In this document: positions 8,246 to 15,109 of the stretch, piece after piece
Numbering within the stretch: the first letter of the stretch is position 1
How the letters are laid out: every line of letters starts with the position of its first letter
Assembly (NCBI GenBank): GCA_010093705.1
Contig: MU006096.1
Coordinates: 801,908 to 865,907 of the forward strand
DNA from: Patellaria atrata CBS 101060
Taxonomy: Eukaryota; Ascomycota; Dothideomycetes; Patellariales; Patellariaceae
Length of the DNA: 64,000 nucleotides
Direction of reading: 5' to 3'
Notes under the pieces: generated by a model
Told to the model about the DNA's origin: nothing
Seen by the model: only the letters and a program-made list of their open reading frames with translations
Database searches by the model: none
Position numbers and translations under genes: made by a program

Positions 8246-9638
8246 ACGAGGATTTATATTAACTATAACTTGTCTTTTATGTACAATTGGCGACGCAGTC
8301 GCGCTGTGCTGGTAGTGATGCTGGATGTCGTGATTTGAATGATGCGGCGATATGGGCGGGGCTTTGAATTGCCGTTTTGGTGGAACATCCACCCGATGGG
8401 CCGATTGGTCTAAACCGTGATGGGACGGAACCGGGGTATGCGAGGTTATTATCACCTCTTACGTCCATTTCCAGACGATATCCTCCTTTTCGCTTCGTAT
8501 AAATCACCTTTTCCATAGGTTCTCGTGTGTATGATTGCGCGAAACATTTGTAGATGAGTAATGGGCAGGGTTTGCTTCGCTTTGCTCAGTTACCGGTTGT
8601 GGATTCGACGAACAAGTGCGAGGATACCATAACTGTTATTGCATCGGGAGAACCCATCGTGGAAGTTGATGGAACAAGCAAAAGAGAGAAACGGGAGTAT
8701 TTTAAATCTTCTTATATACCATGTCATTCGCATACATTCATATAGTTGGTCGTTCTCTATCGAAGCAGGATGAAGACACTCCCATCAGATCTCCCATCAA
8801 GTAGTCAACGAAATGTTTACTATGGAACAATCATAACTTCTTTCTAAGATTTAATATTCTCGACTCCTTTATTCTTTGAAAGTCACTTTTTTCCTGTTAT
8901 ACAACTTAGAAAACACGTAGTATGGAAGGATTACTCGAAGACGCCTCATTCCTTAAGTCCTATCAACCGTTGGTCCGGTTTAAAGACGTCGGTGTAGGCC
9001 CCCGATGATAATATATGAACAGACTATAAATTCTGACTTTAAATTTATATATATATAACGAAGTTGTTGGCTATATGGGGCGTATTGATGTGAGAAATGT
9101 GTTCAGCGCAATAGGGCTGGCGATAAGGCACAGTTCAGGTTTTAACGGCTCCGTTCCTCATTCCAGATTCGCAGCAGAATGGTTCAAAATGGTAGTTAGT
9201 AGGACCCCCATGACTTGGTCAAAACTGGAATCAGCTAAACCGTTCTAGAGTAATGTGAATTGGAAGTAACTGCGGCTCCAGTCAGGTATACAGTAAGAGA
9301 ACGAAATGGTTGGCAAGCGCGTGAGCCCCGCTTGGTTTCAAAGGTTACGTCCCGGCCAGGTACAATGTAGTTGTTAAGAAAATCCACGTGCAAGCGCTTT
9401 GATGCGTTGGACCTTGTGAAGACATTGTGAAGACGCATTTGACGGATATTCGAAGCCTCCGAGAATAATACGGCGACTCCTGCACCCTCTCTTTTACTCG
9501 TCTTTCGCACCTGCTACGCACTTCTCTTTAACATTTTCGACATTGTTGACAGCTCGCAATCTCGAACATACCAACATAACTACTTCCATCATTCCCATAC
9601 TTTTGAATACCGCGGCGATATCGTTACCTGAAGCAACA
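8246..9638. other. Intergenic, no gene recognised
   Basis: About 1.4 kb between the divergent dehydrogenase and the acidic-protein gene. An AT-rich patch with a TATATATATA run lies near 9047-9057. The short frames at 8554-8745 and 9235-9510 have no family features. Presumed promoters of both neighbours. Confidence 0.5.
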
Positions 9639-11672
9639 ATGCATCAATCCAGGATCTCCTCTATTATGCCAGCTCATCCTGATCTTGCCGCATCTGATGA
9701 GAGTAGCCTGCCATCCGTGTCATATATTACTTCTGATGATGAGGGAAGCTACAACAATTTTTCTTCAAGCAACACCTCTTACGAAGACTTCGACGACGTC
9801 AAAAAAGACGATCTCACTCCTGCCGACTTTTATAAGATCATGGGCTATCTCTCTCTTGCCGGTTACGAGATCGTCCCGAAAGTTCATCTTCCTGTCGCAA
9901 TCGCGTCATTGGACCTCGCAATTCTTGACTACCTTGTCAGATATCAACATTCTGAGGCAACCGAATTTATTAACGAGCGCGACACTATTCCGATTGCATT
10001 TTCAGACGTTGTTCAATCACATAAAGGGAAGTCCGCAGATATAGCGACTCACGGTGTAACTCCAAAGCACGAGTTCCCTTCCACTATTGACGTCAGTTCT
10101 TCGAAAGATACCTCTCCCAAAATTTCATGGGCTGAAGTTGATGACCTTGATGATGATGAGTGGCTAACATATGCGCTTACCCCTCGCTGGGCCGAAGCTA
10201 ATTCTTCCGACAGAGCTGTTGTTAAAGACGAAGCAAACACTAATCAAGAAGGAGCCCCCAATGCAGATGCGACTGATGAGAACGGAGCAACTGATGAGAC
10301 AGAAGCAACTGACGAGGAAGAACTAACTGTTGAGGAGGAAACCATTGCTACGGTCCTACCCTGGGATTCTTTCTATAGGCCGCATACATTGAATCCATAC
10401 GAATTCTACGGAATCGACGAAGCAGAACGTCTAAACCTAAAGTATAATGCAGACGGTCAGCGTATGAGGTTATTTGCTATAGTCAGGAAGGGTAGAAGCG
10501 AGCGAGGATTTTTCTTTCAATCTCAGTCTACCCATCAATCGCTAGAAGCGGCTCGCACTACCTTAGCTGAGGCTAGAAAGGCGATCTGGGGCGATACATA
10601 TCGAGAGCGCGAGGGAAGAGAAGCCGAACAAGCTGGTTCTACTAGTGATAGTTTTAGTCAACAAGATGAATACCATCACCAGAGCGACGAATCGATGATC
10701 GAAAATATCTATCAGCCGAAGGAAGTCGACACATCTACTCAGTCCCCTACTACGAATGTACAATTGGAAGAAATATCCATTGATTCTTGCCCTAACAGTG
10801 GTATTCCCCAACTCACTCTCCCCTCCCAGAAAACAAACGTCGAATACCGCGTAGATGAACGGTGCACTGTCAACGTTGATGCCATGTTTTCTTCTCGGAT
10901 ACGAAAGAAAACACTAAATTTCACAGTGGAGGAAGAAGAAGAAGAAGAAGCTGAGGATGAAGACACTATGGGAGGAAATACGGAAGACACTGACGAAGGA
11001 AATGAGACTACCCTTACCGGAACCCTTCCTCCAGATACTCCATCTTCGCCGTCATTTTACCCACACTATTCTGCAACATCCCCAGAGACCTGTGCATGGA
11101 TACTTAGATCTGGCTATGGTGCAATTGACCTAGCTCCTGTTGTAAAGGACATTAGTACGCAGGATCCAAGCACTCCTGACGCTCCCCGACGGTATTCTTT
11201 GTTAACCGCCGCGTTTAATACCCTCTACGGATTCGAAGGGATCGAAGAATCTCCACTCCCATCCGGAGCCTATTGCAGGAAGTGGGCTACAGACCCATAT
11301 GCTCCCGGACAGAGCGGTGCAAAACGGGTATGGCAATATAGGAAAGGAGTTAAAGGTGTAAAAAGTGGTAGTAATTTACATCTTAACGATCTTGTTGCTC
11401 ATACCCACCATTCTAATATATCTGAGCCTCTTAACGCCTTTCAATTGCGAAGGAACGAGGATGCAAAGACCGGTGAGGAGTCCATCGCCGTACAAGAAAC
11501 CACTGAGGCGGAAATCCCTCATCGATTTGATACCTCGAATCAGATCAAGATACCAGGGTCCTTGTCTGACGAAGAACCGGAGCCGTGGGCATGGACCTTA
11601 GACGTACAGGCGCTGATAGCAGATATCAGGGCGGGGTTGTGGGAGATTTTCACGGGTGGGGAGGAATTTTGA
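9639..11672 (+). CDS. Acidic, largely disordered protein of unknown function
   Basis: Intronless frame of 677 aa from the ATG at 9639 (MHQSRISSIMPAHPD); the frame is open further upstream but only with non-ATG starts. It is rich in Asp, Glu, Ser and Thr, with a threonine/glutamate repeat (ATDENGATDETEATDEEELT), a run of seven glutamates near residue 430, and scattered Trp-containing patches such as KISWAEVDDLDDDEWLTYAL and PWAWTLDVQALIADIRAGLW close to the C-terminus. A possibly folded segment is PHTLNPYEFYGIDEAERLNL. No enzyme or DNA-binding motif was recognised. Length, codon use and an uninterrupted frame support a real gene. Confidence 0.75.
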   Translation: MHQSRISSIMPAHPDLAASDESSLPSVSYITSDDEGSYNNFSSSNTSYEDFDDVKKDDLTPADFYKIMGYLSLAGYEIVPKVHLPVAIASLDLAILDYLVRYQHSEATEFINERDTIPIAFSDVVQSHKGKSADIATHGVTPKHEFPSTIDVSSSKDTSPKISWAEVDDLDDDEWLTYALTPRWAEANSSDRAVVKDEANTNQEGAPNADATDENGATDETEATDEEELTVEEETIATVLPWDSFYRPHTLNPYEFYGIDEAERLNLKYNADGQRMRLFAIVRKGRSERGFFFQSQSTHQSLEAARTTLAEARKAIWGDTYREREGREAEQAGSTSDSFSQQDEYHHQSDESMIENIYQPKEVDTSTQSPTTNVQLEEISIDSCPNSGIPQLTLPSQKTNVEYRVDERCTVNVDAMFSSRIRKKTLNFTVEEEEEEEAEDEDTMGGNTEDTDEGNETTLTGTLPPDTPSSPSFYPHYSATSPETCAWILRSGYGAIDLAPVVKDISTQDPSTPDAPRRYSLLTAAFNTLYGFEGIEESPLPSGAYCRKWATDPYAPGQSGAKRVWQYRKGVKGVKSGSNLHLNDLVAHTHHSNISEPLNAFQLRRNEDAKTGEESIAVQETTEAEIPHRFDTSNQIKIPGSLSDEEPEPWAWTLDVQALIADIRAGLWEIFTGGEEF

Positions 11673-13117
11673 TTGGGGGTGGGCAATTTGGGTATGAGTG
11701 ATGATTGAGCGCAGATTTTGCGGAGATGTACATATTTTCAACAAGCTCATGAGAACCTTCCGGGCTGTTTGCGAGACCGAGGAAATAACTAGGGTGAGGT
11801 TCTTGACGATTTGGGGTGTATAACACAGACGGGAATCAGCGTTTGATTGATATCATAGTATACTTGAATCCATCCCTTTACCCAGAAATACTCTGAAGAT
11901 CGAATTCCCGATAGTTTGTTTCCGCGATTGGAAGCCAAGTTAGTGACTTACTACTGGCTACCCGCGGACCATTTGAGTTAGTTAGAGCCAAATATGTCTC
12001 TGACATCGTGATATTAGACTCTGTGTGAAGTGTTTAGTACGCTTGGGTTTACAATATGGTATCTTCGTTTATCTACTCATTTAAGTCCAGCTATCTTCAC
12101 AGACCCCAGTATAGAAAGAAGTAATCAATCAGTTACATAGAAGACGTCACTTTCTGGACGTGATATCGATCATTCGTAGCTCAAAACGTATTCTTAGCCG
12201 TTGTATCAGTGTAAGTCTTTAAATATATTAGGTCTTTGCTGTTTTGTAAGAGGGGAAGTTGAAAGGGTTAATGGTCATACAGTCGACTCGTATTCGAGGA
12301 TTGGGTGAACCTTGGGATTATATTCACTGGGGTTGTGGTCAATACGGTATTATTTCCGAGTATATGTTATTGGACGAGATAGAAGGATGAGCTGAAATGA
12401 GTGATTATTGGGTGTAGAAGTTAGGAGGAAACACCCTTTTCATGGGAGAAGTCGTAGGGTGGGACCGAACAGATGACTGGTCGCGTGCTTAGACGAAGCT
12501 TTATGCTAATAATGCGTGGCGTATCTAATAAGGCATATATTATAGACCCCATCAACTAGTTCGACATTGAATGGAGTTCTAATTGTTTAGCTTCGTGGTA
12601 GAGCTAACCGAATAGAACCATTCCGGTGAAGCTATCATCAGCCTTGTGTATTCCAGAACATGATAAGATACGATCATTCCTACTTCACTTGACAAGAAAT
12701 CAGTCTTTACCAAACCTTCGCACGAGGAACCTTACCTTATCTACGATAGCCGGGAACATAATTCTTAATTCTGGCTGATGGCTTAATTGGGACAACTTTT
12801 TAATCAATTTCTTTCAGTCAAATCAGTTCGATTCCTTTCACAGTCAAATTTCGTATTTCCTATTAATCTCTTGCCCCAACACACAAGCCCACAGAGAATA
12901 AAGGTGAATCCCTCGAGGGGTTTCCTTATCCCCTCAGCAGAGGGGGTTTCCTTTTACAATTTTTTTTTTTCTTTTTCACCCCCTTCCACCTTCTTTTTTC
13001 ATCTCGCAACTGTGCTCAAGCTCCATCAATTAGCTGACCGGAAAGAGATATCAATCAGCATATGTTCTCAACATTCCAATTTACGAGATCGATATCTTAG
13101 AAGAGATATTCAAAATT
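11673..13117. other. Intergenic, no gene recognised
   Basis: About 1.4 kb. A pyrimidine-rich tract (long T run then C/T) occupies 12955-13005, typical of strong fungal promoters, just upstream of the three-domain gene. A 133-aa frame at 12787-13188 overlaps the start of that gene and has no recognisable content, so it is not called. Confidence 0.5.
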
Positions 13118-15109
13118 ATGGCGGACATATTCTTTCCTCCTTATACAAGTGGGAACACAAAAATAAACCCAGAGTTCAGCCACGTTAGATCCAGGTCCTC
13201 AGTATCTCTCCGCCATTTCATACGGCATAAGTACCCCATTTGCGATTTCTTTGTGTCTCCTGGGCACACTTGGCTTGAAAGAAAGAAGATAGAACAAACC
13301 GCGCTCACCGTACAACCTATCCTCATCAATATCTCAGTTACGAGGTTGAAACATAAGCGATTCAAGTTACGTCGAGTAGAGATATGGGACGGGCATCATA
13401 GACTTCTTGCAGCATTGCAATCATGTGGACCCCACGCAACTCTTCATAACTGTGTATCTTGGCTTAGTGGCGAGCGAGATGTCGCAAAAAGAGGCAGCGT
13501 CGCAGTGATTCTAATAAACTGCCGGACAGTGACGAAAGAGTTGTATGAACAATGGGTGAAATTATCAGGACTCCTTTTGCACTATCCATTAGCAGAAGCT
13601 CTGGTTCCTGCTCCTGGGTTTATGCCTGAGCCATACACCGTAAAGTTAGATCAAAGAGTCTCTACCATAGGGGACGAGTCTCGTTTAGGAGAAACAAATT
13701 TTTTTAGCGGAGATTCTGATATTGCTCGACTTGGATTATTCTTTGGTTCATTCGATCCAATCCACAACGGACATCTTGATATAATGGACTATCTCCTGAA
13801 AGAAAACACTCTGGAGATTATTGTCCTTATTCCAAACATGGAGGCGGTCAACAAGTCTTTCCACACTTCTCGATTCCATCGGATTGCCCTTATGAAGTTA
13901 GCCCTTGGGTCTTTGACCCGGCAGTATCCGGGTAGAATTTTCATATTCCTTCGAAATACCAATTGGGTGGGTTCCATGGAAGTACGTGAAGCATTCATGG
14001 AAGGTATAGCTCAAGTGTTTGGAATTCCCCATAGATCTATTTACCACATTGAAGGCTTCGAAGCACAGAAGCCATTCTTAGGCCTCTTCCCCTCCATTGT
14101 TCTTCCCAGAGCGACCGATGCTCTCACAGAGCATGCGATAGCAGGTATTCATCCGCGTTCGAAAGTTGATCGATTCTTCCAGGACCGGTGGAATCTAAGT
14201 TCTTCAGCTATCCGCCGATGGCTTCAGCTTTACCGGATCCCACATCCAAGCATCCGCAGTCCTGCAGTCGAACCATTCGTTGCGGCAGCTCTCCCGGCCA
14301 CAGTAAAGCTATACATCGAGAGCAACCAGCTCTATCTGACGGAAATTCCCTTCTTCAATCTGAAGCCCAAGATACTTCCATCGGCGGATTTTGTCCCTCA
14401 ACATCATAACACAGATGTATCTGATGTATCACTCACTAGTTACCTCCTGACGACTGGCACAGCCGCTCGTATCACTGCTTTCCGCACCCAAGCGGCACAC
14501 CTCAATCTTGCGATCTCCGAGACCCTGCTTTTTCATGGAAACTCTATCAACGTTTGCCCCAACGGCCTCATCACCCATAACTCTGCGTATCTGACACCCT
14601 CACGCGGCTATCTAAACCCGACACATAGTCCTCATGCATCCTCTATCCGTCTCTCCCCTTCTCTCCCTTATCCCGTCACGAACTTTGAGCTTGCATGCTA
14701 TCTTTCGCACCATCAAATTTGGGCTGCTTCTTTCTGGTGCGGATCGCCACATGTCCTAATCGCCGAAGACCGAGCCGTCTTCACCTCTAACTTTGCAACG
14801 CGACTTAAAGCCGTACTGCCGGAGCTCGCTAAACTAGACTACTCACTGTGTTACCTGTACAGTCGGCCATCGGCACCGGCGCTGAGGAAAGCGGGAGATG
14901 GTGAGTTACTGCTAACAGCGTATGTGGTCAGTCGACTGGGTCTGCAGGTACTGCTAGGGAAAGCATTCCCGGTAAGGAGACCGGTAGATTGGTATGTGAA
15001 AGAGACTTTGAGTAAAGAGGGCAAGAACCCGGGGATATATGCGGCGTCTTTGGTTGAGAGAAATGAGGAGCTCGTTACTACGATTCCGAAGGTGTCGCAT
15101 AATTGGTGA
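13118..15109 (+). CDS. Three-domain protein: ParB-like + NMNAT-like nucleotidyltransferase + GT25-like glycosyltransferase
   Basis: Intronless, 663 aa. Residues about 65-110 contain a ParB/sulfiredoxin-like patch with WDGHHRLLAAL (DGHHRL at 91-96). Residues about 200-395 look like a nicotinamide/nicotinate-mononucleotide adenylyltransferase or cytidylyltransferase: LGLFFGSFDPIHNGHL with the HxGH signature (GSFDP at 210-214, HNGH at 216-219), and the ISSTxIR-type motif SSSAIRRWL starting at 361. Residues about 445-655 resemble glycosyltransferase family 25: LACYLSHHQIWAA, VLIAEDRAVF (Glu550-Asp551), TAYVVSRLGLQVLL and RPVDWYVKE from 622. The GT25 EDD-type motif reads EDR here, so metal binding may differ. 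Substrate unknown. The domain set and lack of introns suggest bacterial origin or fusion (inference). Domain calls are from motifs only. Confidence 0.8.
   Translation: MADIFFPPYTSGNTKINPEFSHVRSRSSVSLRHFIRHKYPICDFFVSPGHTWLERKKIEQTALTVQPILINISVTRLKHKRFKLRRVEIWDGHHRLLAALQSCGPHATLHNCVSWLSGERDVAKRGSVAVILINCRTVTKELYEQWVKLSGLLLHYPLAEALVPAPGFMPEPYTVKLDQRVSTIGDESRLGETNFFSGDSDIARLGLFFGSFDPIHNGHLDIMDYLLKENTLEIIVLIPNMEAVNKSFHTSRFHRIALMKLALGSLTRQYPGRIFIFLRNTNWVGSMEVREAFMEGIAQVFGIPHRSIYHIEGFEAQKPFLGLFPSIVLPRATDALTEHAIAGIHPRSKVDRFFQDRWNLSSSAIRRWLQLYRIPHPSIRSPAVEPFVAAALPATVKLYIESNQLYLTEIPFFNLKPKILPSADFVPQHHNTDVSDVSLTSYLLTTGTAARITAFRTQAAHLNLAISETLLFHGNSINVCPNGLITHNSAYLTPSRGYLNPTHSPHASSIRLSPSLPYPVTNFELACYLSHHQIWAASFWCGSPHVLIAEDRAVFTSNFATRLKAVLPELAKLDYSLCYLYSRPSAPALRKAGDGELLLTAYVVSRLGLQVLLGKAFPVRRPVDWYVKETLSKEGKNPGIYAASLVERNEELVTTIPKVSHNW

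Follow-up and report, generated by a model that had tools for sequence, protein, structure and literature searches.

A fungal protein joining NadD-type nucleotidyltransferase and GT25 domains to a probable ParB/sulfiredoxin-like module, with arginine at a metal-linked acidic site of both catalytic domains

HldE, NadR, COASY and FAD synthetase are bifunctional kinase-nucleotidyltransferases, and C2GnT-L is a GT-A enzyme with an arginine or a lysine in place of the metal. To our knowledge, no fusion of a ParB/sulfiredoxin fold with a Rossmann nucleotidyltransferase has been described before. The ParB/sulfiredoxin fold counts Srx and SerK (PMC5120207, accessible part) among its members. According to the accessible part of PMC12704722, ParB-type folds are found in numerous enzyme fusions, a GxxR ‘P motif’ is defined for them, and binding of ATP, CTP or GTP is possible, with 11 of 28 purified proteins binding an NTP and the other 17 not. 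A DGHHR motif has been reported in ParB domains of polymorphic toxins (PMC3482391, accessible part). Regarding NadD, Asp-109 of the E. coli enzyme has been proposed to position Mg2+, and its change to alanine leaves 0.038% of the activity (PMC1249556).

Here we describe a gene of the fungus Patellaria atrata CBS 101060 that lies in the window, i.e. the whole 64,000-nucleotide stretch of contig MU006096.1 that was analyzed, and whose features are collected in Table 1. The encoded fusion protein is real and unusual, with two of its parts certain and one probable. An earlier note on this DNA had claimed an uninterrupted frame of 663 residues. This was borne out, since the frame begins with an ATG and lies in a stop-to-stop span of 691 codons, while in 40 simulated windows of matched dinucleotide make-up no open frame exceeded 288 codons. 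The motifs were likewise where they had been placed: DGHHR at residues 91–95, FDPIHNGH from 212, SSSAIRR from 361, CYLSH from 527, AEDR from 549 and RPVDW from 621. A search of the whole genome (28.3 Mb, 46 contigs) found the gene in a single copy. Codon usage could not separate frames or domains (0.013 in frame versus -0.012 and 0.018 out of frame). The highest 19-residue hydropathy is 1.36, no membrane segment is predicted, and the protein is probably soluble and cytosolic.

Table 1. Features of the fusion gene (positions are those of the window)
Feature	Position	Strand	Basis
Complete single-exon ORF, 663 aa + stop	13118..15109	+	First ATG downstream of the in-frame stop at 13031
ParB/sulfiredoxin-like module, probable, aa 52-133	13271..13516	+	AF2 topology, low confidence; without sequence-profile support
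DGHHR box, aa 91-95	13388..13402	+	Consistent with GxxR, the ‘P motif’ defined for ParB-type folds
NadD-type nucleotidyltransferase domain, aa 203-407	13724..14338	+	Pfam, NCBIfam, PDB-sequence, Foldseek, profile alignment
GSFDPIHNGH = GxFxPxHxGH nucleotide-binding motif, aa 210-219	13745..13774	+	Both His in 30/30 other A6 rows
P304-H305-R306 at the NadD GxD site	14027..14035	+	Arg306 at the E. coli Asp-109 position; Asp in 86/86 rows, not all independent
SSSAIRR = (I)SSTxIR motif, aa 361-367	14198..14218	+	Motif match
GT25 glycosyltransferase (GT-A) domain, aa 439-663	14432..15106	+	Pfam, predicted-fold match
E550-D551-R552 at the EDD site	14765..14773	+	EDD in 10/10 other A7 rows, 4/4 A3 rows and L003
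Asp624 in RPVD, late conserved GT25 Asp	14987..14989	+	10/10 other A7 rows

The nucleotidyltransferase fold claimed for the central part is confirmed, and this domain is clearly bacterial in type. It matches PF01467 (CTP_transf_like) with an E-value of 7.6e-8 and 33.1 bits, exceeding the gathering threshold of 21, and the top matches in the NCBIfam and PDB-sequence searches are NadD proteins, i.e. nicotinate-nucleotide adenylyltransferases. The NadD equivalog TIGR00482 gave 39.5 bits and did not reach its cut-off of 112.45. When compared to an alignment of 86 NadD rows, the domain aligned over 186 columns with an E-value of 2.8e-20 (a single comparison). The best Foldseek match of a model of residues 1–404 was B. 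subtilis NadD (1kaq, E 1.8e-9), a match that is not independent because the model was built with NadD rows as input. The mean pLDDT of this model was 59.9; within the nucleotidyltransferase, seven of the eight ten-residue blocks of residues 201–280 scored 83 to 94, those of residues 281–360 scored 49 to 78, and those beyond residue 360 scored 67 to 95. For residue-level comparisons we also used alignment A6, composed of 27 of the best 80 relatives of the nucleotidyltransferase in prokaryote contigs and 3/3 loci of another search.

The domain retains both histidines of HxGH (H216 and H219) as well as S361 and R366 of SSxxIR. The position of E. coli Arg-46 is occupied by Lys246, with lysine or arginine in 6/7 other rows of alignment A8 and 21/30 of A6. 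At the GxD aspartate the protein carries Arg306, and Phe314 stands at a position with tryptophan in 85/86 NadD rows; the aspartate is present in 86/86 of these rows, a count that overstates independence, as the rows (150 to 240 residues long) come nearly all from Bacteroidota and include near-duplicates. The assignment of Arg306 to this site falls in a weakly similar region (block pLDDT 59 to 65) and relies on the agreement between MAFFT and hhalign. We considered Glu315 as a replacement for the GxD aspartate and rejected it, since both alignments place Arg306 there. Besides, the SYT acceptor stretch of NadD, which has a role in NaMN binding, is missing, and about 13 residues are inserted after SSxxIR.

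The C-terminal region had been read as GT25-like, and here too the reading held. PF01755 matched with an E-value of 2e-6 (28.3 bits, gathering threshold 24) when the full-length protein was searched, and of 3.2e-7 with this segment by itself. A model built from 11 rows (mean pLDDT 72.7, pTM 0.75) matched COLGALT1 (1.6e-10) and Mimivirus R655 (1.5e-7) in Foldseek, the COLGALT1 match resting on an input that included ten other GT25 rows. By sequence search, human COLGALT1 was the best match among solved structures (E 0.0027). Residues C527, S530, H531, E550, D551 and D624 are common to the ten other rows of alignment A7, which holds 10/18 loci of one search. The earlier note had reported an arginine at the second acidic residue of the EDD motif; the arginine is there, but it occupies the last of the three positions, where the second aspartate would stand (codon 552). 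All 15 comparison rows, several of them mutually close relatives, have an intact EDD. That this domain, too, is of bacterial type is no more than a suggestion: a bacterial GT25 shares 28% identity with it over 117 residues (E 5e-13, pairwise). The same genome has a second, more conventional GT25 gene with an intact EDD (L003, 1468-2400; contig C8, ~1165760), preceded by a frame that by eye resembles a type II membrane anchor. BLASTP of the fusion GT25 against the exon frame of this second gene gave nothing meaningful.

In both catalytic domains, then, a metal-linked acid aligns with an arginine, Arg306 in the nucleotidyltransferase and Arg552 in GT25; the former is new relative to the earlier note, which saw only the GT25 change. 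Because both aspartates are replaced, metal-dependent chemistry of the ordinary kind is not expected, and the proposal that the nucleotidyltransferase makes a donor for the glycosyltransferase becomes less comfortable, the acids being constant in the NadD (86/86) and GT25 (15/15) rows compared above. That the binding motifs are kept suggests that selection may act on nucleotide binding. Most likely the protein either binds nucleotides and has a changed, perhaps metal-independent chemistry, or serves to sense them. The best explanation we can offer, tentatively and short of an even chance, is that three nucleotide-handling modules share one chain in which arginine stands in for the metal in both transfer steps. 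The N-terminal module, probably an NTP-binding or phosphotransfer unit of the ParB/sulfiredoxin type, would bind or prepare a phosphorylated small molecule; the nucleotidyltransferase, with ATP bound through HxGH and SSxxIR, would nucleotidylate an acceptor other than NaMN; and the GT25 part would transfer a sugar. With arginine instead of the divalent metal, both steps would be slow or would proceed without metal, and the intermediates would stay on a single chain, much as in the bifunctional kinase-nucleotidyltransferases but extended by a glycosyl transfer. Against this explanation, no substrate, partner gene or cluster pointing to a pathway was found among the identified neighbours. A one-chain assembly line, in which the ParB/Srx module would phosphorylate or present a compound for the NadD part to nucleotidylate and the GT25 part to glycosylate, again with arginine for metal, is a doubtful proposal.

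The same two substitutions can be read as a loss of catalysis. Since the alanine mutant of E. coli Asp-109 is nearly inactive, Arg306 may mean that the nucleotidyltransferase does not catalyze at all, and Arg552 may abolish metal binding in GT25 with nothing replacing it. The protein would then be a pseudoenzyme or sensor, whose nucleotidyltransferase and GT25 parts bind ATP and a nucleotide sugar while the N-terminal module signals nucleotide or sugar state to a partner. The disappearance of a constant acid from both catalytic domains alongside retained binding motifs, together with the severe fall in NadD activity upon changing the equivalent aspartate, speak for such a role. On the other hand, pure binders would not need the ED of GT25, Asp624 and the two HxGH histidines, all of which are kept, and no partner is known. 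We regard the sensor as less likely than not, though nearly as probable as altered chemistry.

With regard to the N-terminal part, the likeness of its DGHHR box to ParB domains is a resemblance between motifs, and no function is claimed from it. The first ~200 residues gave no Pfam, NCBIfam, PHROGs or PDB-sequence match at E ≤ 10, a negative limited by the HMMER filters, which discard most matches above about 0.1. PF02195 (ParB_N) matched neither the fusion protein nor anything else in the genome; among other genomes, G012, that of locus L063, has 12 PF02195 matches (9 on contig C67), and each of 19 others has 0 to 2. With two ParB HMMs, in a run that used 29/30 ParB loci (the incomplete L148 was left out), the protein ranked 56th and 50th among 3675 sequences, which include the query twice, cut and whole. 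We then implanted DGHHR into decoys, and 170/626 natural and 400/2000 shuffled ones matched or beat the ParB score of the query; this motif-controlled comparison used 37 distinct domains out of 45/50 frames, omitting five frames judged spurious. As this many decoys score as well once they carry the motif, the flanks of the box add no sequence support. Regarding structure, the model of residues 1–404 was built from A6, whose rows barely reach the N-terminal part (a few stray residues). Around the box it shows a helix (52–61), two strands (68–77 and 81–91), two helices (93–103 and 109–117) and a strand (128–133), so that the GxxR-type box sits at a predicted strand-helix junction in a ParB/Srx-like topology, at a block pLDDT of only about 37 to 65. 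In Foldseek, the best 50 of 984 matches of this model were all NadD or NMNAT enzymes, and among the best 50 of 803 matches in BFVD, nucleotidyltransferases came on top and none was named ParB.

These data leave room for another view, namely that the N-terminal ~200 residues are an unrelated, lineage-specific region with a DGHHR that arose by chance, the protein being a fusion of nucleotidyltransferase and GT25. The missing family matches, the low HMM ranks and the decoy scores all fit it. It has to face, nevertheless, a chance expectation for DGHHR of 0.00014 occurrences in a protein of equal length and composition (calculated post hoc), an essentially homologue-free model with the order helix-strand-strand-box-helix-strand, and the presence of DGHHRLxAA frames in at least 50 viral loci (80 listed), 45/50 of which look ParB-like by eye. 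We consider a chance motif unlikely and an N-terminal ParB/sulfiredoxin-type module, on the strength of the model and the box, probable. The ParB-like fold claimed in the earlier note is plausible, the motif being present and the predicted topology, though of low confidence, agreeing with it.

As to where the protein came from, a bacterial origin had been proposed from the lack of introns among intron-rich neighbours. This argument is weak, and the description of the neighbours was overstated: nine other frames in the window run for 400 codons or more from stop to stop, and a GMP synthase without interruption is among them. A Pfam scan of ten neighbouring frames identified this GMP synthase, the end of ALG3 and an eIF1A-domain protein, gave no family for the remaining seven and revealed no gene cluster around the fusion gene. 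An unbroken 750-codon frame with many acidic stretches lies at 9420-11669 of the window and has no Pfam match at E ≤ 0.01.

We found no bacterial donor in viral or prokaryote contigs, phages, plasmids or Bacteroidota genomes. The whole protein had no relative in viral or prokaryotic contigs, and in phages or plasmids no site matched 80% of its length, in scans that reach close relatives only. The nucleotidyltransferase alone had no relative in viral contigs, and in prokaryote contigs the matches of the best 80 of its 398 relatives all fell within residues 162–454, which leaves the DGHHR box and the GT25 motifs outside every one of these 80. The N-terminus gave nothing at E ≤ 10 in phages, nothing in plasmids beyond a short match to six records from Ensifer (best E 0.6), and in 395 Bacteroidota genomes a best E-value of 0.004, in a frame interrupted by a stop. 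In these same genomes the GT25 part had no match at E ≤ 0.001, in a search run without a positive control. A PADLOC search gave no match. No frame combined a [DG]G[HCT]HR box with a GxFxPxHxGH-type box in 285/290 loci, the scan leaving out the four loci that hold the fusion gene, plus L003. The order of nucleotidyltransferase and GT25 is supported by both confirmed domains. We found no second protein with this domain order among the viral, prokaryotic, phage and plasmid DNA searched, and none of the papers screened by title and abstract, mostly outside subscription journals, describes the architecture; public databases may already contain it unnoticed.

One could argue that a single part is active, e.g. 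a ParB/Srx-like phosphotransferase, and that the other two are relics of an enzyme pair that was captured and fused. The nucleotidyltransferase does resemble NadD rather than eukaryotic NMNAT, the GT25 part resembles a bacterial protein and not its counterpart in the same genome, and each of the two carries a damaging-looking change. But the 663 codons are intact and the catalytic motifs are exact outside both changed sites, and we find such relics quite improbable.

Other candidate nucleotidyltransferases are encoded in the genome. Two further PF01467 matches read, by eye, as choline- and ethanolamine-phosphate cytidylyltransferases, and frames on contig C11 (~794122) show eukaryotic NMNAT motifs by eye, with a sub-threshold match of 21.8 bits. 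Given these NMNAT-like frames and the different acceptor residues of the fusion protein, an ordinary NAD role is unlikely, and we rejected housekeeping NAD synthesis, as a separate NMNAT-like gene is present. That the protein is an ordinary bacterial-type NadD making NaAD and only incidentally fused is very improbable: its best family matches are indeed nicotinate-nucleotide adenylyltransferases, but it scores far below the TIGR00482 cut-off, has lost the GxD and SYT acceptor motif and has phenylalanine for tryptophan, with NMNAT-like frames elsewhere in the genome.

Several other fusions were seen in passing. In two viral contigs (L282, 4001-5353, and L289, 3884-5341) a NadD frame continues into an NAD synthetase-like SGGKDS domain, by eye a NadD-NadE style arrangement. 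A Bacteroidales NadD lies in a 1274-residue frame (L074, 3986-7807) with peptidase-MA-like and beta-propeller-like matches below the Pfam cut-offs, and a viral-contig protein of 636 residues (L025, 2121-4028) combines GT25 with a PLOD-type glycosyltransferase domain. The best viral structural matches of the nucleotidyltransferase, in BFVD, were the giant-virus proteins A0A5K0UAF4 and A0A3G4ZMD6 (477 and 451 residues), which have at least ~200 residues beyond this domain that could hold others.

An active fusion protein would unite three folds that use nucleotides and show, as a natural test, whether arginine can take over from the catalytic metal in a Rossmann nucleotidyltransferase as well as in a GT-A transferase; the assembly line, if true, would be a new way for a eukaryote to make a metabolite that is nucleotide-activated or glycosylated. 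An inactive one becomes a candidate sensor of nucleotides or nucleotide sugars. In both cases, a class of fusion partner missed by surveys that apply the PF02195 threshold would be added to the ParB/Srx fold.

With the ParB/sulfiredoxin (ParB-CTPase) fold, including SerK and Srx, the fusion protein shares a DGHHR that fits GxxR and, at low confidence, a predicted strand-strand-helix-strand core; it differs in having no significant sequence match, and neither an HTH nor a dimerisation domain was found. Rossmann nucleotidyltransferases and GT25 are not among the ParB fusions named in the accessible part of PMC12704722, whose survey is described there as using PF02195 at the gathering cut-off; a survey of that type would miss the fusion protein, which does not reach this cut-off. 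With NadD (TIGR00482; B. subtilis 1kaq/1kam) it has in common the whole Rossmann domain, GxFxPxHxGH, (I)SSTxIR, a basic residue at the Arg-46 position and a C-terminal YIxxxxLY helix. It departs from NadD in the GxD, tryptophan and SYT positions, in the insertion after SSxxIR and in being fused at both sides. With GT25 proteins (PF01755; COLGALT1, bacterial GT25, Mimivirus R655) it shares the GT-A fold, CYLSH, ED, the late aspartate and their order, and it differs in the last acid of EDD, in having no predicted membrane anchor and in the nucleotidyltransferase joined to it. Finally, the bifunctional kinase-nucleotidyltransferases likewise combine a phosphate-transfer module with a Rossmann nucleotidyltransferase, although their kinase folds are different and their chain has no glycosyltransferase.
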